The position numbers were made by a program, and so were the translations under genes. Below the pieces are notes generated by a model. It had not been told where the DNA came from. It was given only the letters and a program-made list of their open reading frames with translations, and ran no database searches. A DNA stretch of 64,000 bases, taken from Thiohalorhabdus sp. Cl-TMA (GTDB lineage Bacteria; Pseudomonadota; Gammaproteobacteria; Thiohalorhabdales; Thiohalorhabdaceae). The DNA lies in NCBI RefSeq assembly GCF_041821045.1, contig NZ_JBGUAW010000003.1:310001-374000 (forward strand), written 5' to 3'. Positions 1 through 19,927 of the stretch are shown piece after piece. Numbering within the stretch: the stretch's first letter is position 1; each line of letters opens with the position of its first letter.

Positions 1-68
1 GGCTGAAGCCCCCATGCCCAGCCTCTTTAATCCGCATTCGCCTTCGTGGCGTACTCGGAGGTTCGGCG

Positions 69-1445
69 TTAATAGGCGTGCTCCCGGAAGATGGGATCGA
101 TGTCGCCGTGCCAGTCATTGTGGAACTCGTCGAGCAGGAGCTCGGCGGGGGTGCGACCGTTGTCCACCACCTCGAAGAGGTCGGCGAGGAAGACCCGCTC
201 GTCCTGCCCGCTGTCGTTGCGGCGATCGATGCGGCGCAGACCGGCCTCGGCGATGTTCAGCACCTCGCGGGCGATGTCCCGTACCGACCGGCCGCGGATC
301 TCGGCGTTCAGGGCCTTGTGCGGGACCTCGGCGCGCAGGCGCCAGCGCTCTTCCGCCGTCCACTCCTTGACCAGGTCCCAGGCGGCGTCCAGCGCAGTGG
401 TGTCGTAGAGGAGCCCCTTCCACAGGGCGGGCAGGGCGCACAGTCGGCCCCAGGGCCCGCCGTCGGCGCCGCGCATCTCCAGGAAGTGCTTGAGGCGCAC
501 CTCGGGGAACAGCGTGGTGAGGTGGGTCTCCCAGTCGTCCAGCGTGGGGTACTCCCCGGGCAGTGCGGGCAGCCGGCCGGCCATGAAGTCCCGGAAGGAC
601 TGCCCGGCGGCGTCCACGGCCACGCCGTCCCGCACCACGAGCAGCATGGGCACATCGAGGGCGTAGTCCACGTAGCGCTCGAAGCCCATCCCCGACTCGA
701 ACACGAAGGGCAGGTCCCCGCAGCGGTCGGGATCCGTATCCATCCAAACCGAGGAGCGGTAGCTCAGATAGCCGTTGGGGCGCCCCTCCGTGAAGGGGGA
801 GTTGGCGAACAGGGCCGTGGCCACCGGCTGCAGGGCCAGCCCGACGCGGAACTTGCGGATCATGTCCGCCTCCGAGTCGAAATCCAGGTTGGCCTGCACG
901 GTGGCGGTGCGGTACATCATCTCCAGGGCGTGGCCGCCCCGCGTCGGCATGTACCGGGTCATGATCCGGTAGCGCTTCTTCGGCATCTGCGGGATGTCGG
1001 CGAGCCGCCATTTCGGCTGGAAGCCCACGCCGAGGAAGGCCACCCCGAGCGGGTCGGCCACCTCCTTCACCTCCTTGAGGTGCTCGTTCACCTCGCAGCA
1101 GGTATCGTGGAGGGAATCGAGTGGCTCCCCAGAGAGCTCCACCTGCCCGCCGGGCTCCAGCGTCACCGAGCCCTTGCCCATCTTGAGGCCCACGACCCGG
1201 CCGCCCTCCTCCATGGGCTGCCAGCCGAAGCGGGTCAGGCCCCGGAGCACGGCCTCGATGCCCCGTTCGCCTTCGAAGGCCAGAGGGCGTAGGGTATCCA
1301 CCTCGAAGCCGAACTTCTCGTGCTCGGTGCCGATGCGCCAGGCCGAACTGGGCTTGGCGCCGGATTCCAGGTAGCGGACCAACTGGTCGCGGGAGGTGAC
1401 GGTTTCGTCGGAGGCCGGTGCCGGGCGGCCGCTGGACTGGGACAA
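69..1445 (-). CDS. gshA: Glutamate--cysteine ligase, plant/proteobacterial type
   Basis: This enzyme makes gamma-glutamylcysteine from glutamate, cysteine and ATP, the first step of glutathione synthesis in the cytoplasm. The 458-residue protein has the expected length for the plant/alphaproteobacterial class, with a near N-terminal GTEHEKFGF segment, LEPGGQVELSG near residue 100 and a middle KKRYRIMTRYMPTRG stretch, all typical of that class and unlike the E. coli GshA class. The start appears to be TTG at 1445, because AAGGAAG sits about seven bases upstream. It lies 89 bases downstream of the UPF0637 gene on the same strand, so the two may be cotranscribed. No gshB is visible in the window. 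Confidence 0.93.
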   Translation of the reverse strand: MSQSSGRPAPASDETVTSRDQLVRYLESGAKPSSAWRIGTEHEKFGFEVDTLRPLAFEGERGIEAVLRGLTRFGWQPMEEGGRVVGLKMGKGSVTLEPGGQVELSGEPLDSLHDTCCEVNEHLKEVKEVADPLGVAFLGVGFQPKWRLADIPQMPKKRYRIMTRYMPTRGGHALEMMYRTATVQANLDFDSEADMIRKFRVGLALQPVATALFANSPFTEGRPNGYLSYRSSVWMDTDPDRCGDLPFVFESGMGFERYVDYALDVPMLLVVRDGVAVDAAGQSFRDFMAGRLPALPGEYPTLDDWETHLTTLFPEVRLKHFLEMRGADGGPWGRLCALPALWKGLLYDTTALDAAWDLVKEWTAEERWRLRAEVPHKALNAEIRGRSVRDIAREVLNIAEAGLRRIDRRNDSGQDERVFLADLFEVVDNGRTPAELLLDEFHNDWHGDIDPIFREHAY

Positions 1446-1534
1446 GGCGGTCTTCCTTGGTCGGATGAGAGGCCGAGGGAGGGCTTACCGAATGGTCATT
1501 CTGCCCCCTCCCGCCGGACTCTTCAATGCGGCGG

Positions 1535-2122
1535 CTATTCCAGGCCGCGCAGGATCCGGTAGAGCGCGGTGAAATCCTGCAGCTCTTCAAGGAGCGGGTC
1601 GGGGTCGGAGCGTTCCGTTCCCACCGTGCGGCCCAGGTCCAGCCCGCCGGTCTTGAGCCGCATCTTGTGCAGGCGCTGCTCCCAGAATTCATCGTCGGCC
1701 ACCGCTTCCGGCGGTGCTTCGGTGAACTTCCAGTCCTGGAAATTTCCCAGCCGCATGGCCGGCCGGCGCGCGTCCAGGCGGTCCGCCATGGCGGGCCGGT
1801 TCTCCCAGGACTCCTGCTTGCAGACCACCTGGGTGTGGATGCCGAAGCGGCTGATGGCCACGCCCACGTAGGGATACTTCTTGTACCCGCGCTTTTCCGG
1901 CCCGAAGGCCACCCAGGTATCCTCGGGGGGATTCACGCTGCGCCGGGCGTGCTTGGCCACGTGCGCGAACATGGGCTCGCCGGTCTGGGCAGCCAGCGGG
2001 CCCGCCAGCTCCTCGCCCAGCTCCTTGAGGCGCGGATGGATGGATTCCCGGATGGCCCCCATGCGCTCCTCGAATCCGGGAATGGCGAATATCTCTAGAT
2101 CCTCGGGGGAAAACTTGGGCAT
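1535..2122 (-). CDS. UPF0637/DUF1054 family protein of unknown function
   Basis: This 195-residue cytoplasmic protein resembles the Bacillus YktB family: it begins with FSPEDLEIFAIPGFEERM and contains the conserved HVAKHARRSVNPPEDTWVAF stretch and GYKKYPYVGVAI. The family has no assigned biochemical role. An upstream GTG at 2233 keeps the frame open, but the ATG at 2122 is preferred because AGGAG precedes it at good spacing and the family N-terminus starts there; the longer form would also run into the opposing priA gene. It is divergent from priA, with a 73-base gap that must hold both promoters, and lies upstream of gshA. Family membership is recognised from motifs only. Confidence 0.85.
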   Translation of the reverse strand: MPKFSPEDLEIFAIPGFEERMGAIRESIHPRLKELGEELAGPLAAQTGEPMFAHVAKHARRSVNPPEDTWVAFGPEKRGYKKYPYVGVAISRFGIHTQVVCKQESWENRPAMADRLDARRPAMRLGNFQDWKFTEAPPEAVADDEFWEQRLHKMRLKTGGLDLGRTVGTERSDPDPLLEELQDFTALYRILRGLE

Positions 2123-2195
2123 GCCAGATGCTCCTGCGCGCAAGCGAAACAAGATCCCGGGCAACTGCCGGTCCCAGGGTGCCCGGTAGCCTATC

Positions 2196-4436
2196 ATGAA
2201 TGATCGGCCGCTCCAGCCGGACAGGGCGGACACGTCCGAGCGCTCTGAAGCGGGGGTGGTGCGGGTGGCCGTTCCCGTGCCCCTGCGCCGGCTGTTCGAC
2301 TATCTGCCGCCTGAAACGGGCCCCGCGCCCGTTCCGGGTGTCCGGGTCCGAGTGCCGTTCCGGGGCGGGGACCGGATCGGCGTGGTGGTGGCGGTGGAGG
2401 CCCATGCCCGGGTGGAGCAGGGGCGCCTCAAGCGGGTGGCGGAGACACTGGACACGGAGCCCCTCTGGCCGGCGCCCCTGTTCGCGCTCCTGCACTGGGC
2501 CGCCGGCTATTACCACCATCCGGAGGGGGAGGTGTTCGACGCCGCCCTGCCCGGCGTCCTGGGCCGGGGCGGTCAGCCACCCGAGCCGCCGCGCCTGTGG
2601 GGCCTTACCGGTGCCGGCCGGGAAGTGGATCCCGTCGGCCTGGCCCGGGCGCCCCGTCAGCAGGCGCTCCTGGAGGCCCTGCAGGACGGTCCCCTCTCCG
2701 AGGCGGAGCTGCGCACGGTTGCGCCCAACCTGCGTCCGCCGCTGGGCCGCCTTGCCGAGCGGGGCTGGATCGAGGCCCGGGCCGGGGCCCGAGTGTCCGA
2801 GCCCACCGTGGAGCCGGAGCCCGGCCCCGAGCTCAACCCGGCCCAGGCCGAGGCGGTGGCGCGCATCAAGGCGGCGGAGGGGTTTGCCGCCTTCCTTCTG
2901 GAGGGCGTCACCGGCAGCGGCAAGACGGAGGTGTACTTCCACGCCATACGGCCGGTGCTGGACCGGGGGGAGCAGGTGCTGGTGCTGGTTCCGGAGATTG
3001 CCCTGACGCCCCAGCTCCTGGCCCGCTTCCGCCGCCGCCTGACGCCGCGCCTGACGGTCCTGCATTCGGGCCTGGCGGAGGGAGAGCGGCTCGCCGGCTG
3101 GGAGGCGGCGCGCTCGGGGGAGGCGCAGGTGGTAATCGGCACCCGCTCCGCCGTCTTCACGCCTCTGGCCAATCCGGGCCTGATCGTCATCGACGAGGAG
3201 CACGACCCGAGCTTCAAGCAGCAGGAGGGCTTCCGCTACCACGGGCGGGACCTGGCCCTGGCACGCGGTGCCCGGGAAGCGGTGCCGGTGGTCATGGGTA
3301 CGGCCACGCCCAGCCTGGAGAGCCTGTACAACGCGGAGCGGGGTCGCTTCCAGCGTCTCCACCTGCCCGAGCGCGCCGGGGGGGCGCAGCTCCCGGGGAT
3401 CGACCTCCTCGACATGCGCGGGGTGGCCGAGGATGGCGGCCTGGCGCCCGCCTTGCTGCGGGAGGTGGTGGCCACCGTGGAGCGCGGCGAGCAGGCCCTG
3501 CTGTTCCTCAATCGGCGCGGGTATGCCCCGGTGCTGTTGTGTCCCGGCTGCGGCTGGACGCAGGAGTGCCCCCATTGCGACCGCCCCATGACCTTCCACC
3601 GCAGCAGGCGGCTACTGCTCTGCCACCTGTGCGGACACCACGGGCCGGTGCCCGTGCAGTGTCCGGAGGCGGACTGTGGCAATCCGGACCTGCAGACGGT
3701 GGGGTACGGCGTGGAGCAGGTGGAGCAGGCCCTGGCTCGCCACCTACCCGATGCCCGCGTGGTCCGAGTGGACCGCGACACCACCCGCCGCAAGGGCAGC
3801 CTGGAGAGTAAGCTGGACGCCATCCAGTCGGGCCAGGCACAGGTGATCGTCGGTACTCAGATGGTGGTCAAGGGCCACCATTTTCCGGGTGTCACCCTGG
3901 TTGGGGTGGTGGCCGCCGATGGCGGGCTCTACTCGGCGGATTTCCGCGCCCGCGAGCGCCTGTTCCAGCAGATCCTGCAGGTGGCGGGCCGGGCCGGGCG
4001 CGCCGAGCGGCCCGGCAGGGTCTGGGTGCAGACCTTCCACCCCGAGCACCCGGTGTTCGAGCCTTTGAAGGCCCATGACTACAATGCCTTTGCCGAGATG
4101 GAGCTGGCCGAGCGGCGGGCGGCGATCCTGCCGCCCTTCGCGCCCCTGGCCCTGCTGCGCAGCGAAGCCCCGGACGCCGACGCCGCCAACGGCTTCCTGG
4201 AGGCCGCCCGGGAGATGGGGCGGAGCCAGGGAGTGGAGGGCGTCCGGTTCCTGGGGCCCGCGCCGGCGCCGGTAGAGCGGCTGGAGGGGCGCAGCCGCGC
4301 CCAGCTTCTGGTTACCGCCCCGGACCGCAAAGCCCTGCATCGAGCCCTCGCGCCCTGGGCGCCGGGCCTGGAATCCATTCCGGCCGGAAGGGACCTGCGC
4401 TGGTCACTGGACGTGGACCCGGCGGACCTGTTTTGA
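2196..4436 (+). CDS. priA: Primosomal protein N' (replication restart helicase)
   Basis: PriA is a 3'-to-5' superfamily 2 DNA helicase that recognises stalled forks and reloads DnaB. The 746-residue protein shows the N-terminal 3'-DNA-binding domain, a Walker A motif GVTGSGKTE near residue 236, the Walker B box DEEHDPSFKQQ near 333 and the zinc-binding cysteine cluster (CPGCGW, CPHCDRP, CHLCGHHG, CPEADCGN) around residues 450-495. The C-terminal helicase motif QVAGRAGRAERPG is intact. The ATG at 2196 is the first start in frame; its Shine-Dalgarno sequence is weak. It stands alone on the plus strand, divergent from the UPF0637 gene. A hairpin-forming repeat follows the stop codon. Confidence 0.97.
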   Translation: MNDRPLQPDRADTSERSEAGVVRVAVPVPLRRLFDYLPPETGPAPVPGVRVRVPFRGGDRIGVVVAVEAHARVEQGRLKRVAETLDTEPLWPAPLFALLHWAAGYYHHPEGEVFDAALPGVLGRGGQPPEPPRLWGLTGAGREVDPVGLARAPRQQALLEALQDGPLSEAELRTVAPNLRPPLGRLAERGWIEARAGARVSEPTVEPEPGPELNPAQAEAVARIKAAEGFAAFLLEGVTGSGKTEVYFHAIRPVLDRGEQVLVLVPEIALTPQLLARFRRRLTPRLTVLHSGLAEGERLAGWEAARSGEAQVVIGTRSAVFTPLANPGLIVIDEEHDPSFKQQEGFRYHGRDLALARGAREAVPVVMGTATPSLESLYNAERGRFQRLHLPERAGGAQLPGIDLLDMRGVAEDGGLAPALLREVVATVERGEQALLFLNRRGYAPVLLCPGCGWTQECPHCDRPMTFHRSRRLLLCHLCGHHGPVPVQCPEADCGNPDLQTVGYGVEQVEQALARHLPDARVVRVDRDTTRRKGSLESKLDAIQSGQAQVIVGTQMVVKGHHFPGVTLVGVVAADGGLYSADFRARERLFQQILQVAGRAGRAERPGRVWVQTFHPEHPVFEPLKAHDYNAFAEMELAERRAAILPPFAPLALLRSEAPDADAANGFLEAAREMGRSQGVEGVRFLGPAPAPVERLEGRSRAQLLVTAPDRKALHRALAPWAPGLESIPAGRDLRWSLDVDPADLF

Positions 4437-4457
4437 GCGGTATCCGAAACGGCCGGG

Positions 4458-4586
4458 AAACGCCGAGGAGCCAATAAGCCAAGGAGGGTAATGCCCGAAA
4501 CGCCGTGAGAAGGTGTCCGATTGGGCCAGCATTTGCTTCTCAGGCCGGTTCTCCGGGCTCCTCGGCTTTTCTTTTCCTTGGCGTTT
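4458..4586. repeat. Long-range inverted repeat of the AACGCCAAG family, copy 1
   Basis: The gap after priA holds two imperfect inverted arms. The left arm (about 4458-4487) reads AAACGCCGAGGAGCC followed by AAGCCAAGGAGGG; the right arm (about 4555-4586) carries GGGCTCCTCGGC and CCTTGGCGTTT. The same half-site vocabulary recurs at 16291-16456 and 46595-46773. It could fold as a hairpin and may act as the priA terminator, but no clean U-tract is present. Confidence 0.6.
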
Positions 4587-4620
4587 CCTGTTTACGTTAA
4601 TTCCCGGAAAAGGAGCCCCC

Positions 4621-5556
4621 GTGCCTCTAGCCGAGCCGACTCCCGAGACGCTCACCAACCCCCTGACCCGCTACTTGCTGGCTACGCGCCCGGCATTCCT
4701 GTCGGCGGCGGTCCTGGCGGTGCTGGTGGGTCTGGCGGCCGCGCGCCCGGAGGGCGGTCTGGAGGTCATCCCCGCCCTGCTCACCCTGCTCGGGGCGGTC
4801 CTCGTCCATGCGGGGGTGAATGTCCTGAACGATTACTATGACGCCCTGTCCGGAAGCGACGGTCGGAATACGGAGCGCCTGTTCCCCTATACGGGAGGCA
4901 GCCGGTTCATCCAGAACGGGGTCCTGTCGCCCGCTGCGACGGCGCGCTTCGGCTGGGGCCTGCTGGCGGCGGCCGCGGGTATCGGTCTGGGGCTGGTCCA
5001 GCGGGCGGGTCCGGGGCTGCTGGCGGTGGGGGCCGCCGGCCTTCTGGTGGGCTGGGGCTATTCCGCGCGCTGGATCCGGCTCAGCGGCCGGGGACTGGGA
5101 GAGCTGGCCGTGCTGCTGGGGTTCGGGGTGCTCATCCCGGTGGGGACGGGCTGGGTCCAGCGGGGCGGGCTGGTTCCTGAATCCCTGCTGGCCGGTGTCC
5201 CCTTCGGGCTGCTCGCCCTCGACCTGCTGTTCATGAACCAATTCCCCGATTACCGGGCCGATGCCGCCACCGGCAAGCACCACTGGGTGGTGCGGCTGGG
5301 TCCACGCCGTGCACGCTGGCTCTACGGCGCCCTGGCCCTGCTGGCCTACGCCTGGGTGGCTACGGCCGTGTATCTGGGTGCCCTGCCGGATCTGGTCCTG
5401 ATCGCCCTGCTGGCGGCGGTGCCGAGCCTGCGCGCCTGGCGGGACCTGCTGCGCTGGGCGGATGCGCCGGCCCTGCTGGAGCCGGCCGTGCGCCGCAGCA
5501 TCAACGCCATGCTGACCTTCGGGGCGCTGCTGGCCGCCGGCCTCTGGTGGGGCTAG
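4621..5556 (+). CDS. UbiA-superfamily prenyltransferase, MenA-like
   Basis: This is a polytopic inner-membrane prenyltransferase of 311 residues, closest in motifs to 1,4-dihydroxy-2-naphthoate polyprenyltransferase (MenA), which attaches a polyprenyl tail in menaquinone synthesis. The first Asp-rich motif is LNDYYDALSGSD, followed by the MenA-like GGSRFIQNG segment; the second is NQFPDYRADAATGKHHWVV. About eight hydrophobic helices follow the N-terminus. A longer frame from 4513 exists, but the GTG at 4621 is chosen because AAGGAG lies about six bases upstream and the extra N-terminus would cover the repeat region. No other menaquinone gene is in the window, so the exact acceptor is inferred; another aromatic acceptor is possible. 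Confidence 0.85.
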   Translation: MPLAEPTPETLTNPLTRYLLATRPAFLSAAVLAVLVGLAAARPEGGLEVIPALLTLLGAVLVHAGVNVLNDYYDALSGSDGRNTERLFPYTGGSRFIQNGVLSPAATARFGWGLLAAAAGIGLGLVQRAGPGLLAVGAAGLLVGWGYSARWIRLSGRGLGELAVLLGFGVLIPVGTGWVQRGGLVPESLLAGVPFGLLALDLLFMNQFPDYRADAATGKHHWVVRLGPRRARWLYGALALLAYAWVATAVYLGALPDLVLIALLAAVPSLRAWRDLLRWADAPALLEPAVRRSINAMLTFGALLAAGLWWG

Positions 5557-5572
5557 AGGTCGGCGTGCCTGC

Positions 5573-5600
5573 TTGGCGTCCCATAAGGATGGGCTATGAT
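5573..5600 (+). promoter_or_regulatory. Candidate sigma-70 promoter for the envelope cluster
   Basis: TTGGCG at 5573-5578 and TATGAT at 5595-5600 are separated by 16 bases, upstream of the lipoprotein gene at 5781. The implied leader would be about 170 bases. This is a motif match only. The rest of the 224-base gap shows nothing I recognise. Confidence 0.35.
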
Positions 5601-5780
5601 CGGGACACGGGGTGCCGCGATGAGGTCCGGAAGAGCGCCTGAGCGCCGCTGTTGGCGCTGTTCCCGCGACTGATTGTCCTTCCCCTGTCACCCCTATATC
5701 CGCGGCGTCCTGCAGCGCGGGGGATGGCCCGAAGTGGGCGGGAAAGGTAGACTGCGCATGCCCCCAGCCCCGAGGTTGCC

Positions 5781-6914
5781 ATGCGTTCCCTCGTTCTCTC
5801 GTCCCCATGGCGGCTCTTCCCGGCCATACTTGTCCTGGTCCTGGCCGGATGTCAGACCATGTCCGCGCCAAGCAATGAGATGGAAAGCGGCGCCGAGCCC
5901 TGCTGGATGACCCATCCTTCCCCCGGGGGTCGGATCGGCGCCGTCGGCGTGTCGCGGACCCTTTCCGCAGGAGACCCGCCGCTGGTGATCGCCCGCCGCC
6001 GGGCTGCGCGGGGCCTCCTGGGGTATCTGGGCGGGGACGACCTGCCCGAGGGACTGGACAAGCGCTTGCGGGAGATGGCGGAGCGCGGTGGGACGGCGGA
6101 GCTGGCCGGAAGGGTGGTGCGTTTCGCGGCTCCCTTCGAACGGAAGGGCTACCTGTACGCCCATGCGGTGCTCGGCGGGAAGCCACTGGACCGGAGCTGG
6201 CGGTCCCCCTGTCCGGACAGAACCGCCGTGGCGCCCGGGGACTGTCGTCCGGCCTGGATCTGCACGCCCGTCCAGGGCGACCACGTCGGAGTCCTGGGCG
6301 TCAGCTTCCGCGCGGCCACCCGGCCCCGCCAGTTCGAGCTGGCGGCGAACAACGCCGTCAAGCTCCTGGAATACACCCTGGGCGTGCAGGTGGAGGGGGC
6401 GGAACGGTTCCTGCGGGCCCCCACCGCGGCGGGGACCATTCGGCTGCGCACCTCGGAGTTCGACATCGAGAAATCCGGCGGTGTGACAAAAGACATACGC
6501 CTCTATACAAAGCAATTGCGCATTCAGGGCGATGTCCTATATGTTTGGCTCGTCTCCCCGGATCTCCCGCCATATCCGGCTCCGGAGGACCTGGATTGGA
6601 TGCGGGAGCCATCCCCGGAAGGGATGAACGGGGCGGTGGGGATGTCCATTCGGACGGCGGACGGTCTGTTGTCCACCCAGATCGAGCGGGCGTTCGAGAA
6701 GGGAATCTTCGCCTTGGCGAAAAACCGCGGGGCCCATATCGAGAGTATCCAGCACCTTCGTCACGGCGGTGGCGGCCGCTACTATCTGGAAGGTGTCACC
6801 TCCGAAGTGGATACTTCCCTGCGGGCTCGCCTGTTGGGCTTTCATCCCCGGCCGGATGGTCGGGTGTTCGTCTGGGTCGTCGAGGCCGGGCCCGCAAGCA
6901 GGGCTCAGCGATGA
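5781..6914 (+). CDS. Lipoprotein with three LPP20-like repeats
   Basis: The 377-residue protein has a signal peptide ending in the lipobox LAGC (Cys near residue 24), so it should be lipid-anchored, probably in the outer membrane. Three segments echo each other: WMTHPSPGGRIGAVGVS near residue 42, PAWICTPVQGDHVGVLGVS near residue 157, and WMREPSPEGMNGAVGMS near residue 272. The pattern W-(I/M)-x-x-P-x-x-x-x-x-x-G-(A/V)-(V/L)-G-(V/M)-S resembles the start of LPP20-family domains, and the next gene encodes a single-domain LPP20-like lipoprotein. This suggests a triplicated domain. Function is unknown. It is the first gene of a same-strand cluster that runs to 10397. Confidence 0.75.
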   Translation: MRSLVLSSPWRLFPAILVLVLAGCQTMSAPSNEMESGAEPCWMTHPSPGGRIGAVGVSRTLSAGDPPLVIARRRAARGLLGYLGGDDLPEGLDKRLREMAERGGTAELAGRVVRFAAPFERKGYLYAHAVLGGKPLDRSWRSPCPDRTAVAPGDCRPAWICTPVQGDHVGVLGVSFRAATRPRQFELAANNAVKLLEYTLGVQVEGAERFLRAPTAAGTIRLRTSEFDIEKSGGVTKDIRLYTKQLRIQGDVLYVWLVSPDLPPYPAPEDLDWMREPSPEGMNGAVGMSIRTADGLLSTQIERAFEKGIFALAKNRGAHIESIQHLRHGGGGRYYLEGVTSEVDTSLRARLLGFHPRPDGRVFVWVVEAGPASRAQR

Positions 6915-6961
6915 TGCTGCATCCGGCTATGGCCAGGAACCAAGAACTGAAGGGGAAAAGC

Positions 6962-7534
6962 ATGAAGAAGCAAATCGTAATGGGCGCCCTGGTGCTGGGA
7001 GCGGGCGGGCTGATGGCGGGCTGCGCTTCCAGCGGCAAGTCCACGGAAGGCACTGCCGGTCTGCCCAGTTGGGTGATGAACCCCACCATCGAGGGTGGTA
7101 TCGCCGCCACCGAATGCGTGCCGGCCAGCCAGGACCTCAGCCTGGACAAGGCCGAGGCCACCGCGAAGGCCCGGGCCACCTTGGTCAAGCAGATCAACCT
7201 CAAGGTGAAGGCCATGGACAAGACCTACCAGCGCAAGGTCAAGAGCCAGTCCGGCACCACCACCGGCGGCACCTTCGAGAGCGTCTCCCGTCAGGTGGCC
7301 GACCAGTATCTGTCCGGCTCCCGCGCCACCAAGGTCAACTACGTGGACATCAACGGCAAGCGCAACCTGTGCGCCATGGTGACCATGGATCCCAAGACCA
7401 CCGAGAGCCTGTTCAAGGAGCTGGTGGCACAGAGCGAAAAGAAGCTCTCGCCCCAGGACGAGGAAGTGCTCTACGAGGAGTTCAAGGCGAAGAAAGCCCA
7501 GGAAGCGCTGACGGCGGCCACCTCCGAGGAGTAA
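6962..7534 (+). CDS. LPP20-family lipoprotein
   Basis: The 190-residue protein starts MKKQIVMGALVLG and has the lipobox LMAGC, so it is a predicted lipoprotein. The mature part begins LPSWVMNPTIEGGIAATEC, matching the P-x-W-V-x-x-P opening of LPP20-family domains, then has a helical KAEATAKARATLVKQI segment and the end of the domain near LCAMVTMDP. The C-terminus is charged and helical. The start at 6962 is supported by AAGGGG just upstream; the longer open frame from 6545 overlaps the previous gene and is rejected. LPP20-family proteins include flagellar and surface lipoproteins, but no flagellar gene is near, so the role here is open. Confidence 0.8.
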   Translation: MKKQIVMGALVLGAGGLMAGCASSGKSTEGTAGLPSWVMNPTIEGGIAATECVPASQDLSLDKAEATAKARATLVKQINLKVKAMDKTYQRKVKSQSGTTTGGTFESVSRQVADQYLSGSRATKVNYVDINGKRNLCAMVTMDPKTTESLFKELVAQSEKKLSPQDEEVLYEEFKAKKAQEALTAATSEE

Positions 7535-7543
7535 GGGAACGGC

Positions 7544-7566
7544 GGGGCGGGCGGAAAGCCCGCCCC
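7544..7566 (+). terminator. Intercistronic hairpin after the LPP20 lipoprotein
   Basis: A perfect nine-pair stem (GGGGCGGGC / GCCCGCCCC) with loop GGAAA follows the stop codon and is trailed by GATCCGGTTTT. The U-run is short and displaced, so it may weaken transcription or stabilise the upstream mRNA rather than fully terminate. Confidence 0.5.
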
Positions 7567-7612
7567 GATCCGGTTTTCATCCCGGGAACATCGAAGAAAG
7601 GGGACGCACGCC

Positions 7613-8851
7613 ATGTCCGGAAGCGAGGGGCGCCTTCCGCTGTACGTCTCCGGGCGGATATTCGGTAGGCCGTGCGTGGCCCGCAAGGTCGCCGGCCTGC
7701 TCCTGGCGGTGGCCCTGGTTCCGGCGGCCGGAGCGCAGGATTCGGGCGGTTTCGAGGCGTACCGGGACCGGCAGCAGGACGGCTTCGAGGCATACCGGTC
7801 CGGTCAGGAGGAGGCCTTCGCCGCCTACCGGGAGCGTGTCCGCGAGGCTTTCGCGGCCTATAAGCGCAAGGCGGCCCGCGTCTGGGGCCGGGATCGGGAT
7901 CTGGTTCCGGATCGCCAGACCTGGGTCTCCTACCGGCACGGCATGCGGGAGCGCCGGGTGGTGGACTTCGAGCGCGGCCAGGCGCGATTCCAGGTGGCGC
8001 TGGAGCCCGGTCAGCGGAAGGTCACGGCGCAGGCCCGGGCGTGGCTAAAGGATGCCATCGTCGACTCCCTGACGCGAGGGCCCGACCAGCGCACTATCGA
8101 GGAGATCGCCGAGGATCCCGACGCCGCCCGACCCGGTGGGGATCCGCTCCTGGACGGTCTGGCGGCGGACGATGCCGGAAGGCCGGTGGCTGCCGAGCAG
8201 GCCCGGGACTTCGCCGAGCAGGTGGTGAAGGAAGCGCGGGTGGAGGAGGTGGAAAGCGGCGATGGCCACGAGCGGGTGGCAGTCACCGCGGAGGTTCCCC
8301 TGATCCCCGACCATGTGCGCAAGCGGGCCGAGAAGTACCAGACGGTGGTGGAGCGGCAGGCCGAGCGGCGCTCCTTGGCTCCCGAGCTGGTCTTCGCCGT
8401 CATGGAGACGGAGAGCTTCTTCAACCCCATGGCCCGCTCCCCCATTCCCGCCTTCGGACTCATGCAGCTCGTTCCCGTGTCGGGCGGTTTGGAGGCTTAC
8501 CGCATGGTGCACGGCAAGGATAAAAAGCCCTCCGAGCAGTTTCTCTACGATCCGCAGAACAACGTGGAGCTGGGAGCGGCCTACCTCCACCGCCTCTATT
8601 ACGACTACATGCGGGGTATCGAGGACGACCGGGCGCGGCTCTGGTGCGCGGTAGCGGCCTACAATACCGGGCCGGGCAATCTGTATCGGACCTTTGCCGA
8701 GGCTGGCGGCCGCCAAGCGGCGGTGCGACGCGTTAATCGCATGGGCCCCGACGAGGTCTTCGACCATCTGGTGGTCAACCTCCCCTACGAGGAAACCCGC
8801 CATTACATACAGAAGGTCCGGGAGAAGATGCCCAAGTACCAGCGGCTGTAG
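7613..8851 (+). CDS. MltC-like lytic murein transglycosylase with hendecad repeats
   Basis: This 412-residue exported protein should cleave peptidoglycan glycan strands in the periplasm. A hydrophobic signal (around residues 23-41, ending AGAQ) is followed at residues 46-89 by four tandem 11-residue units with the pattern (G/A)-F-(E/A)-A-Y-(R/K). Next comes an MltC N-domain-like region (VWGRDRDLVPDRQTWVSYR), then the SLT domain: METESFFNP with catalytic Glu267, AFGLMQLVP and AYNTGPGN. There is no lipobox, unlike E. coli MltC. GAAAGGGG precedes the ATG at 7613; a GTG about 21 codons further in would give a more conventional signal peptide. The next gene shares the same repeat module. Confidence 0.88.
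   Translation: MSGSEGRLPLYVSGRIFGRPCVARKVAGLLLAVALVPAAGAQDSGGFEAYRDRQQDGFEAYRSGQEEAFAAYRERVREAFAAYKRKAARVWGRDRDLVPDRQTWVSYRHGMRERRVVDFERGQARFQVALEPGQRKVTAQARAWLKDAIVDSLTRGPDQRTIEEIAEDPDAARPGGDPLLDGLAADDAGRPVAAEQARDFAEQVVKEARVEEVESGDGHERVAVTAEVPLIPDHVRKRAEKYQTVVERQAERRSLAPELVFAVMETESFFNPMARSPIPAFGLMQLVPVSGGLEAYRMVHGKDKKPSEQFLYDPQNNVELGAAYLHRLYYDYMRGIEDDRARLWCAVAAYNTGPGNLYRTFAEAGGRQAAVRRVNRMGPDEVFDHLVVNLPYEETRHYIQKVREKMPKYQRL
7748..7879 (+). repeat. Four tandem 11-residue (33-bp) coding repeats
   Basis: Residues 46-89 of the transglycosylase form four units: GFEAYRDRQQD, GFEAYRSGQEE, AFAAYRERVRE and AFAAYKRKAAR. The aromatic positions recur exactly every 11 residues, which predicts a long amphipathic or right-handed coiled-coil helix. 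Confidence 0.85.
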
Positions 8852-8903
8852 TGGCTGGGCTTGGAGGCGCGAGGCCAGGATGGAAAGCGAGAGGGAGCCC
8901 CGC

Positions 8904-10397
8904 ATGGGAAGTCGCTTACGCTGGATGGTGCTGGCGGTGACAGGGCTGCTTACGGCGGCGCAGGCCGGAGCCCAGTCGGAGGAGGCGTTTCAGGAGTTCA
9001 TGAAGGAGCGGCGGGCCGAATTCCAGCAGTTCCGCTCCGAGCGGGACCGCCAATTCCACAGCTACCTGAAGCGGCAGTGGGAGGAGTTCCGGGCCTTCGC
9101 CGGGGAGGTGGAGGATCCGGCCCCCAAGCCTTCCAAGATTCCCGAGGCGGAGCCCGAGCCGGACAAGCCGCCCGAGCCGGTGGCCGTGCGCACCAAGGAG
9201 CCGGAGCGTACCGAGCCGGCCCCCGAGGAGCCCGCGCCCAGGGAAGAGCCCCCGGCGGTTCCGGCCCCCGAGCCCGAACCGGAGCCGAAGGCGCTTACTC
9301 CGGAGAAGAAGCGGATCAGGCTCTCGGCGCTGGGACACGAGCTGACTGTCGCGGTGCCCGCCGCCTGGGGCAAGATGCGCCTGGAGCGTCGCAGTCCCCA
9401 GGGCGTGGCCAAGTTCTGGAAGGCCTTCGCCCAGGGGCCGTCGGCAAGCCCCGTATTGAAGTCGCTGGCCGACGCCAGCGAGCGCTGGAGCCTGGGGGAC
9501 TGGGGATATCTGCGCCTCGTGCACGACCTCGGCCGTAAGGCCGCCTCCGGCGACGCCGAGAGCCGGCTCCTCGCCTGGGCCCTGTTGCTGGAATCCGGCT
9601 ACGCGGTGCGGGCGGGGCTGGCCAACGGCGAGGTGGCCGTGCTTTTCCGAAGCCGAAACCACCTGTTCGAGACCCCCTATTTCCGCATCGACGGCGAGCG
9701 GTATTACGTCTACGACCCCGACGGTGACCCGGTAACCTCCGGCCTGCGCTCCTACAAGGGCGATTTCCCGGGAAAGGTCCGGGCCGCGGTGGTGGCCAGC
9801 CGCCGGCCGCCGGACGCCGCGCCGGAGGAGGAAGCCCGGGAGCTGACCTTCAAGTACCAGGGCGAGCGCCACCGGGTTCGGGTGCCGGTGAACCCCAATC
9901 TGCTTTCCTACCAGGACTCGCTGCCGCAGCTTTCCCTGGCCAATTACTTCCTCATGGAGCCGCCCGCGGAATTCAGTGAGGGCCTGCGTCGGCAATTGAA
10001 GGCCGAGCTGCAGGGCCTGCCGCCCCGCGAGAAGGTGGAGCTCCTGCTCGCCTTCGTGCAGAAGGCCTTCCAGTACAAGCGGGACCAGGACCAGTTCGGT
10101 GGGGAGAACTACCTCCTCCCCACGGAGACCGCCCATTATTCCCATTCCGACTGCGAGGACCGGGCGGTGCTCTTCTCCTGGCTGGTCCACGACCTGCTCG
10201 GGTACCCGGTGGTGGCCCTGGACTATCCCGGGCACGTGGCCACGGCGGTGGCCCTGCCCGAGGGCGGACAGGGCCGGTACGTGGAATGGAAGGGCAAGCG
10301 CTTCTACGTGGCCGATCCCACCTACGTGAACGCCGGCCTGGGTACCGCCATGCCCCGCTACGCGGATGCTCAGCCCGAGATCCTGCCCGCCTGGTAG
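8904..10397 (+). CDS. Exported transglutaminase-like protein with hendecad repeats
   Basis: The 497-residue protein starts with a signal peptide (MGSRLRWMVLAVTGLL, ending AGAQ). Residues 28-71 are four 11-residue units like those of the preceding transglycosylase. A Pro/Glu-rich linker (about residues 73-132) follows, and the C-terminal half carries a transglutaminase-like cysteine-peptidase fold. Its likely triad is Cys417 in HSDCEDRA, His444 in YPGHVATAV and Asp471 in VADPTY, which are intact. Such domains can act as peptidases or amidases; the substrate is unknown. The ATG at 8904 is preferred (GGGAG upstream); an ATG at 8880 is the alternative. It ends the envelope cluster, 52 bases after the transglycosylase. 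Confidence 0.8.
   Translation: MGSRLRWMVLAVTGLLTAAQAGAQSEEAFQEFMKERRAEFQQFRSERDRQFHSYLKRQWEEFRAFAGEVEDPAPKPSKIPEAEPEPDKPPEPVAVRTKEPERTEPAPEEPAPREEPPAVPAPEPEPEPKALTPEKKRIRLSALGHELTVAVPAAWGKMRLERRSPQGVAKFWKAFAQGPSASPVLKSLADASERWSLGDWGYLRLVHDLGRKAASGDAESRLLAWALLLESGYAVRAGLANGEVAVLFRSRNHLFETPYFRIDGERYYVYDPDGDPVTSGLRSYKGDFPGKVRAAVVASRRPPDAAPEEEARELTFKYQGERHRVRVPVNPNLLSYQDSLPQLSLANYFLMEPPAEFSEGLRRQLKAELQGLPPREKVELLLAFVQKAFQYKRDQDQFGGENYLLPTETAHYSHSDCEDRAVLFSWLVHDLLGYPVVALDYPGHVATAVALPEGGQGRYVEWKGKRFYVADPTYVNAGLGTAMPRYADAQPEILPAW
8985..9116 (+). repeat. Four tandem 11-residue coding repeats, second copy of the module
   Basis: Residues 28-71 read AFQEFMKERRA, EFQQFRSERDR, QFHSYLKRQWE and EFRAFAGEVED. 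The spacing of aromatic residues matches the module at 7748-7879 in the neighbouring gene, although sequence identity is modest. Confidence 0.75.
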
Positions 10398-10601
10398 GCC
10401 GCGTTGACGCCCGGCCGGGGAGGGAGCAAACTGCCGCCCTTCCCAGCGCCGGGGTCGGCCAAGCGGGCCCTCTGCTAGTACAATACGAAACAGCGGCTCC
10501 GGGGCGCTTTTCCATCCGTGCGGCCCCCCATCCGGGAGGGGCGTCCGGGTCGCGGAGCCTCCGAGCCAGTTTCCCGCCCAAGCGATCAAGGATTTAGCCG
10601 G

Positions 10602-11476
<875 letters not shown>

Positions 11477-11480
<4 letters not shown>

Positions 11481-13675
11481 GTGAGGGAGCGAATTCTCTT
11501 CCGTTGCTGCTGGAGATCGGGGTGGAGGAGCTGCCCGCCGGGATGCAAGGCCGACTGGTGGAGCAGCTCAAAACTGACCTGGGGCATGCCCTGACCGAGC
11601 ATCACCTGTTGGGGGCGTTTGATCTGCAGGCGGCCCCGCGGGTTTATTCCACGCCTCGGCGACTGGCGGTCTTCTTCCCTGCCGTGCTCAGCCGGCAATC
11701 TGACCAGGAAGTAGAGCACCGTGGCCCGCCCGTCTCCGCGGCCTTCGACGACGCCGGCAATCCCACCAAGGCCGCCACCGGCTTCGCCGGCCGCTTCGGC
11801 GTGGGGGCCGAGGCCCTGGAACGTCGCGCCACCGACGGCGGCGAGTACCTGTATTATACCGAGCACCAGGCCGGCCGCGCGGCCATGAAGGTGCTCGCCG
11901 AGGTCCTGCCGCAGGTGATCGATTCCCTGCCGGTTCCCAAGCGCATGCGCTGGGGCGACCTGGAGTGGGGCTTCGCCAGGCCCATCCATTGCCTGCTGGC
12001 CCTGTTTGGCGAGGATGTGGTGCCCTTCGAGGTGGGAGGAATCAGCAGCGACCGCTTCACTCGGGGCCACCGTTACCACGCCCCGGACCCCGTTCATCTG
12101 GATGCTGCCGATTCCGGGGCCTATACCGGACTGCTGCGCGAGAACTTCGTGGAGGCCCATGCCACCGAGCGCCATCGCCAGATAGAGGCGGAGATCCGCA
12201 ATCAGGCTGACAAGGCAAAGGGGAGGATCCCCGATACCCCGCAGATCACCGACCTGCTCGATGAGGTGACTGGGCTGGTGGAATGGCCGGTGCCCTTCAC
12301 CGGCGGTTTCGGCGAGAAATTCCTGGAGCTGCCCAAGGAGGTGCTGGTCACCTCTATGGAGAAGCACCAGAAGTTCTTTCCCGTGGAGGACGGCGCGGGA
12401 AGCCTCCTGCCCGCCTTCATCGGCGTGGCCAATATCGACTCCAAGGACCCGGAGGCGCTGCGCGCCGGGCACGAGCGGGTGCTTCGGGCCCGGCTGGAGG
12501 ACGCGCGCTTCTTCTGGGAGGAGGACCGCAAGCGGCCCCTGGCCGATCGGGTGGATGCGCTGAAGCACGTGGTCTTCCAGGCCAAGCTGGGCACCTTGTT
12601 CGACAAGGCGGAGCGACTGGCCGTTTTGGCGCCGGCCATGGCGGAGGCCTTCGACCCCTCCGTGGCCAGCCTGGCGGAGCGGGCCGGCTGGCTGGCCAAG
12701 GCGGACCTCCTCACCGACATGGTGGACGAGTTCGACACCCTCCAGGGAATCATGGGCGGCTACTACGCCACGGGCGACGGTGAGGATCCCCAGGTTGCCG
12801 CGGCGCTGGCCGAGCAGTACCGGCCCGGGCACGCCCGGGATGTCCTCCCGGAGACGGGAACCGGCACGGCGCTTGCCCTGGCGGACCGGCTCGACACCAT
12901 GGTGGGCTGCTTCGGTGTCGGCCTGGAGCCCACCGGCACCAAGGATCCCTTCGCCCTGCGCCGCGCCGCCATCGGCATCCAGCGCATGGCCATCGAGAAG
13001 GGCATCCATCTGGACCTGCCGGATCTGCTGGCGCGTGCCTACCGCGCTTACGGCGATCGCCTGGAGCGGGACGCCGGCGAGACCGTGGACGCGGTGATCG
13101 ATTTCCTAAACGACCGCCTCGAGCCCATGTACACGGAGGCCGCCGGTCAGCCGGTGAACCGGGACGTGGTGGCCGGTGCCGAGCAGGTGGCGGGGCAGCA
13201 GGGCACCGGCGCGGTGGCCGGTCCGGACCGCAACCAGGTGAGCGCGGTTCTCAGCCTCCGGCCCACCGACCCCTATGATGCCCACCTGCGCCTGCGGGGC
13301 CTGCTGGCCCTGCTGTCGCATCCCAACGCCGACTCACTGATCGCCGCCAACAAGCGGATTGGAAACATCCTGCGCAAGGCCGAGGAGTCGGTCCCGGCGG
13401 GCTATGACGGGGAGGCCCTGAGCGAGGCGGAGGAGCGGGCCCTGGCGGCGGCCTTCGAGGAGGTGCGGCCGCGCTTCCAGGCCGCCGTGCAGGCCGGAGA
13501 CTATACAGCGGCGCTGTTGGCCCTCGCCGAGCTGCGCGAGCCCGCCGACCGCTTCTTCGACGCCGTGCTGGTGATGGCGGAGGACGACGCCGTGCGGCGC
13601 AACCGGCTGGCGCTGCTGCAGACCATCCACGCCGCCTTCCTCCAGGTGGCGGACCTCTCCAAGCTGCCCGGGTAG
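11477..13675 (+). CDS. glyS: Glycyl-tRNA synthetase beta subunit
   Basis: The 732-residue beta subunit binds tRNA-Gly and is needed for aminoacylation with GlyQ. It begins [16 protein letters not shown], contains [20 protein letters not shown] and [15 protein letters not shown], and has the C-terminal DALR-like anticodon-binding region ending [13 protein letters not shown] roughly 40-residue stretch near residues 560-590 (around [14 protein letters not shown]) is richer in Gly, Ala and Gln than expected and may be a lineage insertion. The start at 11477 overlaps the glyQ stop by four bases, indicating translational coupling. The gmhB start follows the stop after five bases. Confidence 0.97.
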
Positions 13676-13680
13676 CCCCG

Positions 13681-14253
13681 ATGACGGAGCGAGCCCTGCC
13701 CCGGGTGGTCCTGCTCGACCGCGACGGCGTGCTCAACGAGGACCGGACCGACTACGTGAAATCGGTGGCGGAATGGGTGTGGCTACCCGGCGCCCGGGAA
13801 GCCGTGGCCCGGCTCCATGCCGCCGGTATCCGGGTGGCGGTGCTCACCAATCAGTCCTGCGTGAACAAGGGCATCGTGGCGCTGGAGACCCTGGAGGCGG
13901 TGCATCGGCGCATGCACGGCGAGGCCGAGACGGCGGGCGGCCGCATCAGCGCGGTCTTCCACTGTCCCCACGTGGACGCCGATGCCTGCGACTGCCGCAA
14001 GCCGCTGCCGGGGATGATCCACCAAGCGGCCGCCCATTTCGGCGTGGATGCGCGAGAGATTCCCTTCGTCGGTGATGCCGGGCGGGACCTGGAAGCCGCC
14101 GCGGCGGCCGGTGCCCGTCCGGTCCTGGTGCGCACCGGCAAGGGGCGCGACACCGAGCAGGGGGCCTTGCCCCCGGGTACGCTCGTCTTCGATGATCTGC
14201 CCGCCTACACGGAGGCCCTGCTGGATTCGTCGCGGGAGGAGCCAGCGTGCTGA
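13681..14253 (+). CDS. gmhB: D-glycero-beta-D-manno-heptose-1,7-bisphosphate 7-phosphatase
   Basis: GmhB removes the 7-phosphate from heptose bisphosphate during synthesis of ADP-heptose for the LPS inner core. The 190-residue protein is a HAD phosphatase with the nucleophile motif LLDRDGVLNED (Asp13, Asp15), the TNQS loop and the zinc-binding CPHVDADACDCRKPLPGM segment typical of this enzyme, followed by VGDAGRDLEAA. It follows glyS after five bases and overlaps the acyltransferase start, so it belongs to a glyQ-glyS-gmhB-plsC transcription unit, an arrangement common in Gammaproteobacteria. Its product would feed the same pathway as the LPS genes near 39-41 kb. Confidence 0.95.
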   Translation: MTERALPRVVLLDRDGVLNEDRTDYVKSVAEWVWLPGAREAVARLHAAGIRVAVLTNQSCVNKGIVALETLEAVHRRMHGEAETAGGRISAVFHCPHVDADACDCRKPLPGMIHQAAAHFGVDAREIPFVGDAGRDLEAAAAAGARPVLVRTGKGRDTEQGALPPGTLVFDDLPAYTEALLDSSREEPAC

Positions 14254-14996
14254 CGGCCGTGCGCTCCATTCTCTTCTACCTGGGCATGGGGACGCTGACG
14301 CCGCTGTTCGCCCTGCCGCTGCTGGCATCCCGGCCGCTGCCCTTCGCCGTGCGCGAGTCCATCGCCCGGGGGTGGTGCCTGGCGGTGCTCGCATGGCTGC
14401 GATTCACCTGCGGGCTCCGGCATCGTGTGGAGGGGCTGGAGAATTTGCCGGATCACCCGGCGGTCATCCTCTCCAAGCACCAGTCCGCCTGGGAGACCAT
14501 CGCCTTCCGAACCCTGTTTCCGGCCCACCTTTCCTGGGTGCTGAAGAAGGACTTGTTCCGCATCCCCTTCTTCGGTTGGTCCCTGTTGGCGCTGGAAGAG
14601 ATTGGCATCGACCGCGCCTCGGGCCGGGAGGCCCTGCGGCAGGTGGAGGAAAAGGGTACGGCCCACCTCCGGTCGGGACGATGGGTGGTGGTATTCCCCG
14701 AAGGAACCCGGGTGGCGGTCGGGGAGACCGGCAAGTACGCCCAGGGAGGCGCACGCCTGGCGGTGGCGGCGGGCGCCCCCGTGGTGCCCGTGGCACTGAA
14801 CTCCGGTAGCTTCTGGGGACGGGAGAGCTGGCGCAAGCGGCCCGGGACCATCACGGTGCGCATCGGTCCCGCCTTCGATCCGGAGGGCTACTCCGCCGCG
14901 GGGCTGAATCGGGCCGTGCGCGACTGGATCGAGGCCCAGATGCCGGAGCTGGAGGAGCGGCCGGAGCCGGCGCGGGAGCCCGTGTCGCCCGCCTGA
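14247..14996 (+). CDS. PlsC-family lysophospholipid acyltransferase
   Basis: The 249-residue membrane-associated enzyme probably acylates 1-acylglycerol-3-phosphate to phosphatidic acid. Two hydrophobic N-terminal segments precede the acyltransferase motif I, here SKHQSAWET, in which the usual Asp of HxxxxD is Glu; this variant is common in one proteobacterial subgroup. Motif III appears as FPEGTR and motif IV as VVPVALNSG. The GTG start at 14247 overlaps the gmhB stop (GTGCTGA), implying translational coupling. The C-terminal tail is Glu/Pro-rich. Because several PlsC paralogs usually exist in such genomes, assignment as the essential enzyme is not certain, and no symbol is given. Confidence 0.9.
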   Translation: MLTAVRSILFYLGMGTLTPLFALPLLASRPLPFAVRESIARGWCLAVLAWLRFTCGLRHRVEGLENLPDHPAVILSKHQSAWETIAFRTLFPAHLSWVLKKDLFRIPFFGWSLLALEEIGIDRASGREALRQVEEKGTAHLRSGRWVVVFPEGTRVAVGETGKYAQGGARLAVAAGAPVVPVALNSGSFWGRESWRKRPGTITVRIGPAFDPEGYSAAGLNRAVRDWIEAQMPELEERPEPAREPVSPA

Positions 14997-15108
14997 GCGC
15001 GTGCCGCTTCCCTGGGGCCCGGGTGATGGGGCATTCTGGCCCGAATCCGACCATGTGCCGGCGTACGGATCCCGTCCCGCCGGCCGCCAGAAGGCAGTAG
15101 CCCGGACC

Positions 15109-16272
15109 ATGCTCCACATCGAATTCGGTGATAGCGTTGCCACCTTCCCGACCGCCGAATGGGATGCGCTGGCCGGCTCCGATCCCTTCCTTGCCCATGC
15201 CTTCCTCCGCGCCCTGGAGACTACCGGCTGCGTCGGTCCGGGCACCGGCTGGCATCCCGTGCCGCTCGGCGTGCGGGACGACGGCGGTGCGCTGATGGGG
15301 GCCGCGCCCCTGTACCTGAAGGATCACTCCTTCGGCGAGTACGTGTTCGATTGGGGCTGGGCCGGAGCGGCGGAACGGGCGGGCCTGGACTATTACCCCA
15401 AGCTGGTGGCGGCGGTGCCTTTCTCCCCGGTAACCGGCGCGCGGATGCTGGTGGCCGACCACGCCGATGCCGGAGCCGTGCGGGAGCGGCTCATGGCCGG
15501 CGCCATGGAGCTCGCCGAGCGCTACCGGTGCGGGGCGGTTCAGTGGCTCTTCCCCCGCCGGTCGGATCTGGGGCCGCTGGAGGAGGCGGGCTACCTGGGA
15601 CGCCGCGATGTGCAGTTCCACTGGTACAACCGCGGCTACGCCGATTTCGAGGATTTTCTCGGGGAATTCTCCTCCTCCAAGCGCAAGCAGGCGCGCAAGG
15701 AGCGCCGGCGGGCGGAGGAAACTGGCCTGGAGATCGCCGTCCGCCAGGGCGGCGAGGTGTCTCCCGAGGAGTGGGCGGCCTTCCACGAAGGCTACATGGT
15801 CACCACCGAGATGCGCGGCGCGCCCGCCTACCTGAACCGGGCGTTCTTCGAGGAGCTGGGCCGTTTGCTCGGCGACCGGGTCGTACTGGTGGGCGCCTAC
15901 CGGGAGGGCGCGCTCGTGGCGGGCGCCCTGAACCTGCGCTCGGACACGGCGCTGTACGGCCGCTACTGGAGCGCGCTGGAGGAGCACGATTTCCTCCACT
16001 TCGAGGTGTGCTTCTACCGGGGCATCGATTACGCCATAGAGCACGGCCTGGAACGGTTCGAGGGCGGCGCCCAGGGCGAGCACAAGGTCAAGCGCGGTTT
16101 CGTGCCCACCATCACCGCCAGCGCCCACTGGGTGGACCATCCCGGCCTGCGGAACGCGGTCTCGGAATTCCTGGAGCGGGAGACGCCGCAGGTCCGCGCC
16201 TATGCCAAGCAGGCGGCGGGGCACCTGCCCTTCAAGGAGGGGCGCAATCCGGGGGTGATGGAAGGACCCTAG
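15109..16272 (+). CDS. FemAB-like GNAT-fold protein (DUF482)
   Basis: The 387-residue protein matches the FemAB-like/DUF482 group, a double-GNAT fold related to peptidyl transferases that add residues to peptidoglycan precursors; the bacterial function of this group is not settled. Recognisable features are the opening SDPFLAHAFLRALETTGC, the lysine/arginine-rich SSKRKQARKERR stretch, TTEMRGAPAYLNRAFFEEL and the C-terminal YRGIDYAIEHGLERFEGGAQ with EHKVKRGF. An in-frame ATG at 15001 would extend it by 36 residues with no family similarity, so 15109 is chosen. It follows the acyltransferase by 112 bases on the same strand. No signal peptide is evident. Confidence 0.85.
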   Translation: MLHIEFGDSVATFPTAEWDALAGSDPFLAHAFLRALETTGCVGPGTGWHPVPLGVRDDGGALMGAAPLYLKDHSFGEYVFDWGWAGAAERAGLDYYPKLVAAVPFSPVTGARMLVADHADAGAVRERLMAGAMELAERYRCGAVQWLFPRRSDLGPLEEAGYLGRRDVQFHWYNRGYADFEDFLGEFSSSKRKQARKERRRAEETGLEIAVRQGGEVSPEEWAAFHEGYMVTTEMRGAPAYLNRAFFEELGRLLGDRVVLVGAYREGALVAGALNLRSDTALYGRYWSALEEHDFLHFEVCFYRGIDYAIEHGLERFEGGAQGEHKVKRGFVPTITASAHWVDHPGLRNAVSEFLERETPQVRAYAKQAAGHLPFKEGRNPGVMEGP

Positions 16273-16290
16273 GAAGACGGCGAAGACAAG

Positions 16291-16456
16291 AGAACGCCAA
16301 GAAGCCAAAAAGCGCCAAGGATCGCCAAGAAAACAAGAACTGCTCTAGCAGGAGTCAGTGGCTTTCCAGGGCCGGGGCTGGTGAGCCCGCTTAGCCGGCG
16401 AGCGCAAAGGCATTCCAATCGTTCTCCTAGGGCTCTTGGCGCCTTGGCGTTCCGCC
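16291..16456. repeat. Long-range inverted repeat of the AACGCCAAG family, copy 2
   Basis: The convergent gap between the FemAB-like and TraB-family genes has a left arm (about 16291-16334) built of AACGCCAAGAAGCC, AGCGCCAAGG and ATCGCCAAGA, and a right arm (about 16431-16456) reading GGCTCTTGGCGCCTTGGCG. The arms are inverted and about 95 bases apart. The rest of the gap shows no gene. Confidence 0.7.
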
Positions 16457-16459
16457 TTC

Positions 16460-17695: not shown

Positions 17696-17760
17696 TTAAA
17701 GAATTTCTTTTTGCGGGACCTTGATGCAATGGTACCGGAGGCCAAGGAGTTCGCCTAACC

Positions 17761-19530: not shown

Positions 19531-19592
19531 TCGCCGGGGAATCCGGTTTCCCCGGGGAGGGCATTCCCGGAGGGGTCTGGAGCGCCACGGCC

Positions 19593-19618
19593 TGTCGCGG
19601 CCGGAGGCCGCTCCCATA
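19593..19618 (-). repeat. REP-like palindromic element
   Basis: TGTCGCGGCCGGAGGCCGCT followed by CCCATA is the reverse-orientation form of the TGTGGGAGCGGC...GCCGCGACA element. It pairs with an opposite copy about 90 bases away. The remaining 19531-19850 stretch holds no gene I can support. Confidence 0.8.
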
Positions 19619-19705
19619 GAACCCGAAACAGCCCCGAAGGCCTTTTCTGGAAGGGTAAAAAGGAGGCTGCGCCTGGAGTGCCAATCATAGCCTGCAGAGG
19701 GCAAC

Positions 19706-19733
19706 TGTGGGAGCGGCCTCCGGCCGCGACAGG
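19706..19733 (+). repeat. REP-like palindromic element, partner copy
   Basis: TGTGGGAGCGGCCTCCGGCC followed by GCGACAGG lies in inverted orientation to the copy at 19593-19618. Together they could fold into a long stem, and may protect the 3' end of the ABC transporter mRNA. Confidence 0.8.
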
Positions 19734-19853
19734 AGCTTCTGGGAAGCGTATGGAAAAGGCTGGTACGCCGGACGAAGGTGTGCCGGATAGGGCTCGCCTG
19801 CGGGAGACGCGCGCTGACCGGCAGGTAGCGGCGAGTGGGAGACCGGTAAAGCA

Positions 19854-19877: not shown

Positions 19878-19927
19878 AGGGAGCTCGTGGGCGCATCCGC
19901 GCCCCCGGTAACCGGACCACTCCGGTT

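Follow-up and report, generated by a model that had tools for sequence, protein, structure and literature searches.

A predicted envelope module of LPP20-type lipoproteins, an MltC-like transglycosylase and a LapG-fold cysteine enzyme in Thiohalorhabdus and distant bacteria

We analyzed a 64,000-nucleotide stretch of the genome of Thiohalorhabdus sp. Cl-TMA (contig NZ_JBGUAW010000003.1, positions 310,001 to 374,000; hereafter the window), in which four genes, A to D, occupy positions 5781–10397 on one strand, as an initial annotation of the sequence had stated and the open reading frames confirmed. Gene A (5781..6914, +) encodes a predicted 377-residue outer-membrane lipoprotein, B (6962..7534, +) a 190-residue LPP20-type lipoprotein, C (7613..8851, +) a 412-residue exported MltC-like lytic transglycosylase, and D (8880..10397, +) a 505-residue exported member of a transglutaminase-fold cysteine enzyme family. 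The families of B, C and D, together with A or a single-module counterpart of it, were found to be inherited together and to lie close to one another in distant genomes, in many cases accompanied by LpoB and a lipoprotein similar to COG3014. Because related sets, often including LpoB, recur together in distant bacteria, the four genes probably constitute one wall-remodeling system, and on balance we favor an outer-membrane-tethered peptidoglycan remodeling module allied to LpoB-controlled wall synthesis.

Gene neighborhoods were examined at 80 loci, the best of 514 stretches encoding D relatives that were obtained by scanning genome contigs. The hidden Markov models used to label these loci were built from the same loci, so that their expectation values (E) are not independent evidence. 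Going by their record titles, the loci belong to Gamma-, Beta- and Deltaproteobacteria, Cloacimonadota, Calditrichota, KSB1, Marinimicrobia and other lineages. Within 1.5 kb of D, a gene matching the B profile was present at 50 of the 80 loci, a small LPP20 gene at 23 and a C gene at five. B, small LPP20, C and D occurred together at five loci from several phyla (L033, L039, L092, L105 and L107), and both L092 (Desulfobacteraceae) and L039 (labelled Deferribacteraceae) carry them on a single strand in the order D, B, small LPP20, C. Conservation of the neighborhood, which the initial annotation had proposed as the check, is borne out far outside close relatives, both for B beside D and for sets of all four kinds. 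C accompanies D in a minority of loci, and the exact order A-B-C-D was found only in this genome.

The module is wider than these four genes and also comprises LpoB, the COG3014-like lipoprotein and a longer LPP20 gene, all three of which are additionally present at L107. What we call COG3014-like are proteins similar to one encoded at locus L026. In genome G084, genes for the COG3014-like lipoprotein, LpoB, LPP20, C, B and D are contiguous on a single strand. In G054, D sits on a different contig from a cluster that combines B, small LPP20, C, COG3014-like, LpoB and LPP20 genes. Sets without D were C, A and B in G181 and C, B and small LPP20 in G212. In Thiohalorhabdus sp. Cl-TMA, the COG3014-like, LpoB and LPP20 genes lie on another contig (C4). 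LpoB lines up with module genes in G084 and at L026, and it is found near D at L107, L089, L109, L096 and a Bacteroides locus; a class A penicillin-binding protein (PBP) gene adjoins D at the Cloacimonadota locus L074. A Bacteroides finegoldii record contains, in sequence, a gene with an LpoB domain (25.5 bits against a cut-off of 22.3), DUF6175, two LPP20 genes, a hypothetical gene and D. This record (L200, NZ_OY725910.1) is named 'plasmid 8' and may be a mislabelled chromosomal contig, because it bears dprA and other chromosomal-looking genes. Since the D loci and the G genomes overlap (L107 and L182, apparently also L041, L055 and L093), counts from the two sets are not additive.

Co-inheritance was assessed in 276 gammaproteobacterial genomes that were at least 90% complete, in which D was detected in 13, B in 20 and LpoB in 58. 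B was present in 12 of the 13 D genomes and in 8 of the 263 others (Fisher p 5e-15), and LpoB in 10 of 13 and 48 of 263 (p 1.5e-5), both values being uncorrected for kinship. Some of the B matches, those near 1e-14, stem from the longer LPP20 gene that belongs to the LpoB operon. At a threshold of 1e-30, C was found in 6 of the 13 D genomes and in 17 of the 263 others (p 2e-4); a split at 1e-100 gave p 2e-7 at a threshold picked after viewing the list. Together, the conserved neighborhood and the co-inheritance support the initial description of the cluster as a dedicated cell-envelope apparatus.

Two of the products had been noted to share an unusual repeat, which we located in C and D and not in the lipoproteins. 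It is an aromatic hendecad repeat: residues 42–92 of C (7736..7888, +) contain seven pairs of aromatic residues at 11-residue spacing (lag 11) against 1.1 expected, and residues 31–76 of D (8970..9107, +) contain six against 1.2, with none of 5000 shuffles reaching the count in either case. The test took the best 56-residue segment and shuffled that same segment, which makes its p-values optimistic. Summed lag-11 counts were 269 against 66 expected across 57 D sequences and 31 against 10 across seven C sequences, and in the structure model of D the repeat falls mostly within a single long predicted helix (residues 11–65). When the C profile was applied to the 276 genomes at 1e-30, it returned 27 MltC-like proteins. 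The repeat was present (maximum lag-11 count of at least 4) in 10 of them, all in B genomes and seven in D genomes, and absent (count of 2 or less) in 17, none of which was from a B or D genome; the gap between these two classes is independent of the shuffling p-values. Since the repeat tracks the B and D genomes among the 27 proteins, it marks the transglycosylases that accompany the module.

Protein C exceeded two Pfam cut-offs, with 87.9 bits for SLT and 44.8 bits for Mltc_N, and its residues 86–411 aligned to MltC (4c5f) with an E of 1.5e-42 and with the catalytic Glu retained. Against the NCBIfam equivalog model for MltC it scored 195.3 bits, where the cut-off is 375, and it lacks the lipoprotein anchor of MltC, having a signal sequence without a lipobox. 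Judged from its sequence, C is MltC-like yet not MltC, so that the earlier naming of an MltC-like transglycosylase stands at the level of domains and stops short of the equivalog. The prediction that all four products are exported agreed with lipoboxes in A (LAGC/Q) and B (MAGC/A) and Sec signals without a lipobox in C and D, all of which were recognized by reading the sequence rather than with a prediction program. Another gene of lytic transglycosylase type is present in the window at 55636–56715 (+), with an SLT domain of 97 bits.

Protein D had no significant match in Pfam or NCBIfam; its assignment comes from an AlphaFold2 model (pLDDT, the predicted local distance difference test, 91; pTM, the predicted template modeling score, 0.84) and an alignment of 57 family members. 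The C-terminal domain in this model (residues 316–504; 9825..10391, +) was closest to LapG (4u65_E; Z 11.4, 4.0 Å, 139 residues), followed by Streptococcus pyogenes TglA (Z 10.2), PeiW (8.6), PeiP (8.5) and many transglutaminases at about 8; in Foldseek, LapG was the only match below 0.001 (E 1.9e-4). Residues D424-C425-E426-D427-R428, H452 and D479-P480-T481 were invariant in all 57 aligned sequences. LapG itself has a DCED-like motif at its calcium site. At the sequence level, the D profile retrieved nothing at E≤1 from the sequences of solved structures, and D itself matched neither LapG nor BTLCP in Pfam and NCBIfam. The LapG model was matched weakly by two of the 57 relatives (best E 0.0013), and the Transglutaminase core model (PF01841) left D unmatched and had matches among 18 of the 57 (best E 0.012). 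On the model and the alignment, D is assigned to a family of cysteine enzymes with a Cys-His-Asp triad (C425, H452, D479) and the LapG/transglutaminase fold, with a putative cutting, linking or transfer activity, which agrees with the transglutaminase-like cysteine-triad protein of the initial annotation.

In the model, strands and helices follow one another in the first globular domain of D (residues 143–292; 9306..9755, +) just as they do in the catalytic domain, and the first domain is possibly a degenerate copy of the second. A profile comparison of the two domains gave a probability of 1.5, which is not significant and which 2 of 30 column-shuffled controls exceeded. Plasmid and phage collections hold hardly any D, with one record in each. 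Positions 427–1494 (−) of MT839828.1, an unannotated record of 4 kb entitled 'Bacteriophage sp.' and taken from human faeces, encode a D-like sequence with 32% identity over residues 145–502; this is probably bacterial DNA.

The description of A and B as two LPP20-like lipoproteins fared differently for the two proteins, both of which fall under the Pfam LPP20 (PF02169) cut-off. B scored 24.3 bits, just below the cut-off of 25.9, and relatives in the same neighborhood exceeded it with 33.8 (L026) and 43.3 (L092) bits. The model of B (pLDDT 79) superposed on the solved structure of Lpp20 (5ok8_A) with a Z of 12.2 and a root-mean-square deviation of 2.1 Å over 105 residues, the next matches having a Z of at most 8.6; by this model, B has the LPP20 fold. 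A matched no family, LPP20 with its gathering cut-off included, when compared at E≤1 with Pfam, NCBIfam and PHROGs. Three segments of A, cut by eye, were mutually similar, with local scores of 59, 58 and 41 against shuffled means of 26–30, and these scores were reached by 0, 0 and 3 of 300 shuffles. A profile built from the small LPP20 lipoproteins adjoining D in other genomes matched A with a full-sequence E of 1.1e-10 (search parameter Z set to 1000) and its single modules with 0.0025–0.05. From these weak profile matches, A looks like three tandem and very divergent LPP20-like modules. A homologue of A with 36% identity adjoins C and B in G181, and the triple lipoprotein occurred in 2 of 370 genomes, with C and B adjacent both times. 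Another lipoprotein of the B type, with about 50% identity, was observed at L031 7267–7995 (−), G000:C11:125272–125841, and other module genes were not found nearby.

The open reading frame list gave intergenic gaps of 47, 78 and 28 bp; the ATG of B at 6962 lies within a longer open frame, and D has an alternative start at 8904. The whole cassette (5557..10397, +) is missing from the congener G001 (99% complete), which is collinear on both sides and in which window positions 5551 and 10579 lie 217 bp apart. By eye, homology to the G001 spacer restarts immediately after the D stop codon. G001 also had no LpoB match, and the cassette is missing from a second congener, G002 (82% complete). The four genes were thus acquired or lost together, as one block. 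GC content overall and at third codon positions (GC3) does not clearly distinguish the cassette from its surroundings. We also considered a mobile element and rejected it, as the cassette ends share no exact direct repeat of at least 9 bases, the window contains no tRNA, and D is so scarce in plasmid and phage collections. No Rfam match was found in window positions 1–20000.

Other genes were observed repeatedly around D. At many gammaproteobacterial loci among L033–L112, the B-D pair often comes directly after genes that, from their sequences, we presume to be ccmG/ccmH/ccmI-like and DsbA-like. A FecR-domain or similar-looking protein is encoded directly after D at L089 (11452–12252, Pfam 40.5 bits), L034 (3341–4066) and L189 (5563–6276).

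If the four genes remodel the wall as we favor, A and B would be lipoproteins beneath the outer membrane that dock or activate other components, and C would cut glycan strands in the sacculus. D would hydrolyze an amide bond, belonging either to wall peptides or to a protein partner, thereby controlling or completing the cut. The hendecad helix, placed where MltC has its lipid anchor, may hold C and D together or to a common partner, and the LpoB operon, on the other contig here, would couple the module to a class A PBP. A bolder version, which we put forward only as a speculation with rather poor chances, is that D founds a family of LapG-fold wall endopeptidases or amidases whose hendecad helix docks to its counterpart on an unanchored transglycosylase of MltC type, forming with LPP20 outer-membrane anchors a two-blade machine that excises peptidoglycan at glycan and peptide bonds, paired with LpoB-driven insertion by class A PBPs. 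If this were true, LPP20 lipoproteins, including Lpp20 of Helicobacter pylori, would be scaffolds of wall remodeling.

Several observations weigh against a wall-remodeling module. B is lacking within 1.5 kb at 30 of the 80 D loci, including all the Cloacimonadota loci checked, although some contigs end near D; C is nearby at just five loci and is missing at 1e-30 from 7 of the 13 D genomes, and G005, G049 and G143 carry D without LpoB at 1e-10. Many D-B pairs adjoin cytochrome c maturation or DsbA-like genes, which the model leaves unexplained. Moreover, the substrate of LapG is a protein and not peptidoglycan. The main rival is possible, though we hold it to be unlikely: D would be a regulatory protease that, like LapG, acts on a protein at the surface or on a lipoprotein (an adhesin, or A and B themselves), and C would only open the sacculus for assembly or release. 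The top fold match of D and the two relatives with weak LapG matches fit this, as does the related BTLCP protein HvyA, which restricts capsulation in Caulobacter and requires its triad to do so (PMC4241560). The associations with LpoB and a lytic transglycosylase favor the wall instead, and no adhesin or LapD-like gene was recognized among the recurring neighbors of D, though no search was aimed at LapD.

The HvyA precedent would also allow control of a capsule or exopolysaccharide, which seems very improbable given that no obvious polysaccharide export cluster was seen by eye among the recurring neighbors. That the genes build the ring or basal disk of a machine spanning the envelope (flagellum, pilus or secretion system), with C opening the wall, has a somewhat better though still slim chance. 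FlgP, Lpp20 and FlgT have a common SHS2-like fold, and rings are formed, according to the same paper, with the help of a beta-hairpin insert that follows the SHS2 helix (PMC12222027). A small LPP20 member weakly matched FlgT_N (E 0.0037), but the FlgP-type insert was not seen in the B model, where the position is helical at low confidence, and inspection of the recurring neighbors by eye showed no prominent flagellar, pilus or secretion family. That the genes are chance neighbors with independent roles is the least credible explanation: the A-B-C-D order is limited to this genome and two congeners lack it, but the recurrence of the clustering in several phyla and the co-inheritance already contradict it.

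The initial annotation had recognized no named system in the cluster, and our searches likewise returned no description of the family of D, of MltC-like proteins bearing the hendecad or of the combined module in the family libraries and literature covered, a partial coverage with most subscription papers outside it. Every fold in the module is already known. Like MltC of Escherichia coli, C has an SLT catalytic domain and an MltC N-terminal domain; it differs in the missing lipobox, the aromatic hendecad repeat in front and its score below the equivalog cut-off. D shares the fold and the Cys-His-Asp triad with LapG and the BTLCP proteins, including HvyA, and differs in the lack of a family-level match, in its extra first domain and hendecad helix, and in its gene neighbors. 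The pseudomurein endoisopeptidases PeiW and PeiP are, like D, transglutaminase-fold cysteine enzymes, and they cut wall peptides; their Z values are middling and shared with many transglutaminases. Their substrate is archaeal. The LPP20 lipoproteins, typified by Lpp20 (HP1456; PMC11756786), have the fold predicted for B, which adds a C-terminal helical extension, and A would be a triple and very divergent form. LpoB, the activator of PBP1B, is itself in the wider gene set, and neither A nor B, which had no such Pfam match, is LpoB. In H. pylori, HP1457 is an LpoB homologue; the HP0018 gene is syntenic with HP1457 in some Helicobacter, and HP0018 pulled down MltD and AmiA (PMC11394524). Because HP1456 is next in number to HP1457, the LPP20-LpoB pairing may exist in H. 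pylori as well. What LPP20 lipoproteins do outside flagella is an open question, and their ties in several phyla to LpoB, a modified MltC-like enzyme and the D family give them a directly testable role in wall remodeling. The aromatic hendecad helix, carried by two enzymes, is a possible periplasmic docking motif.

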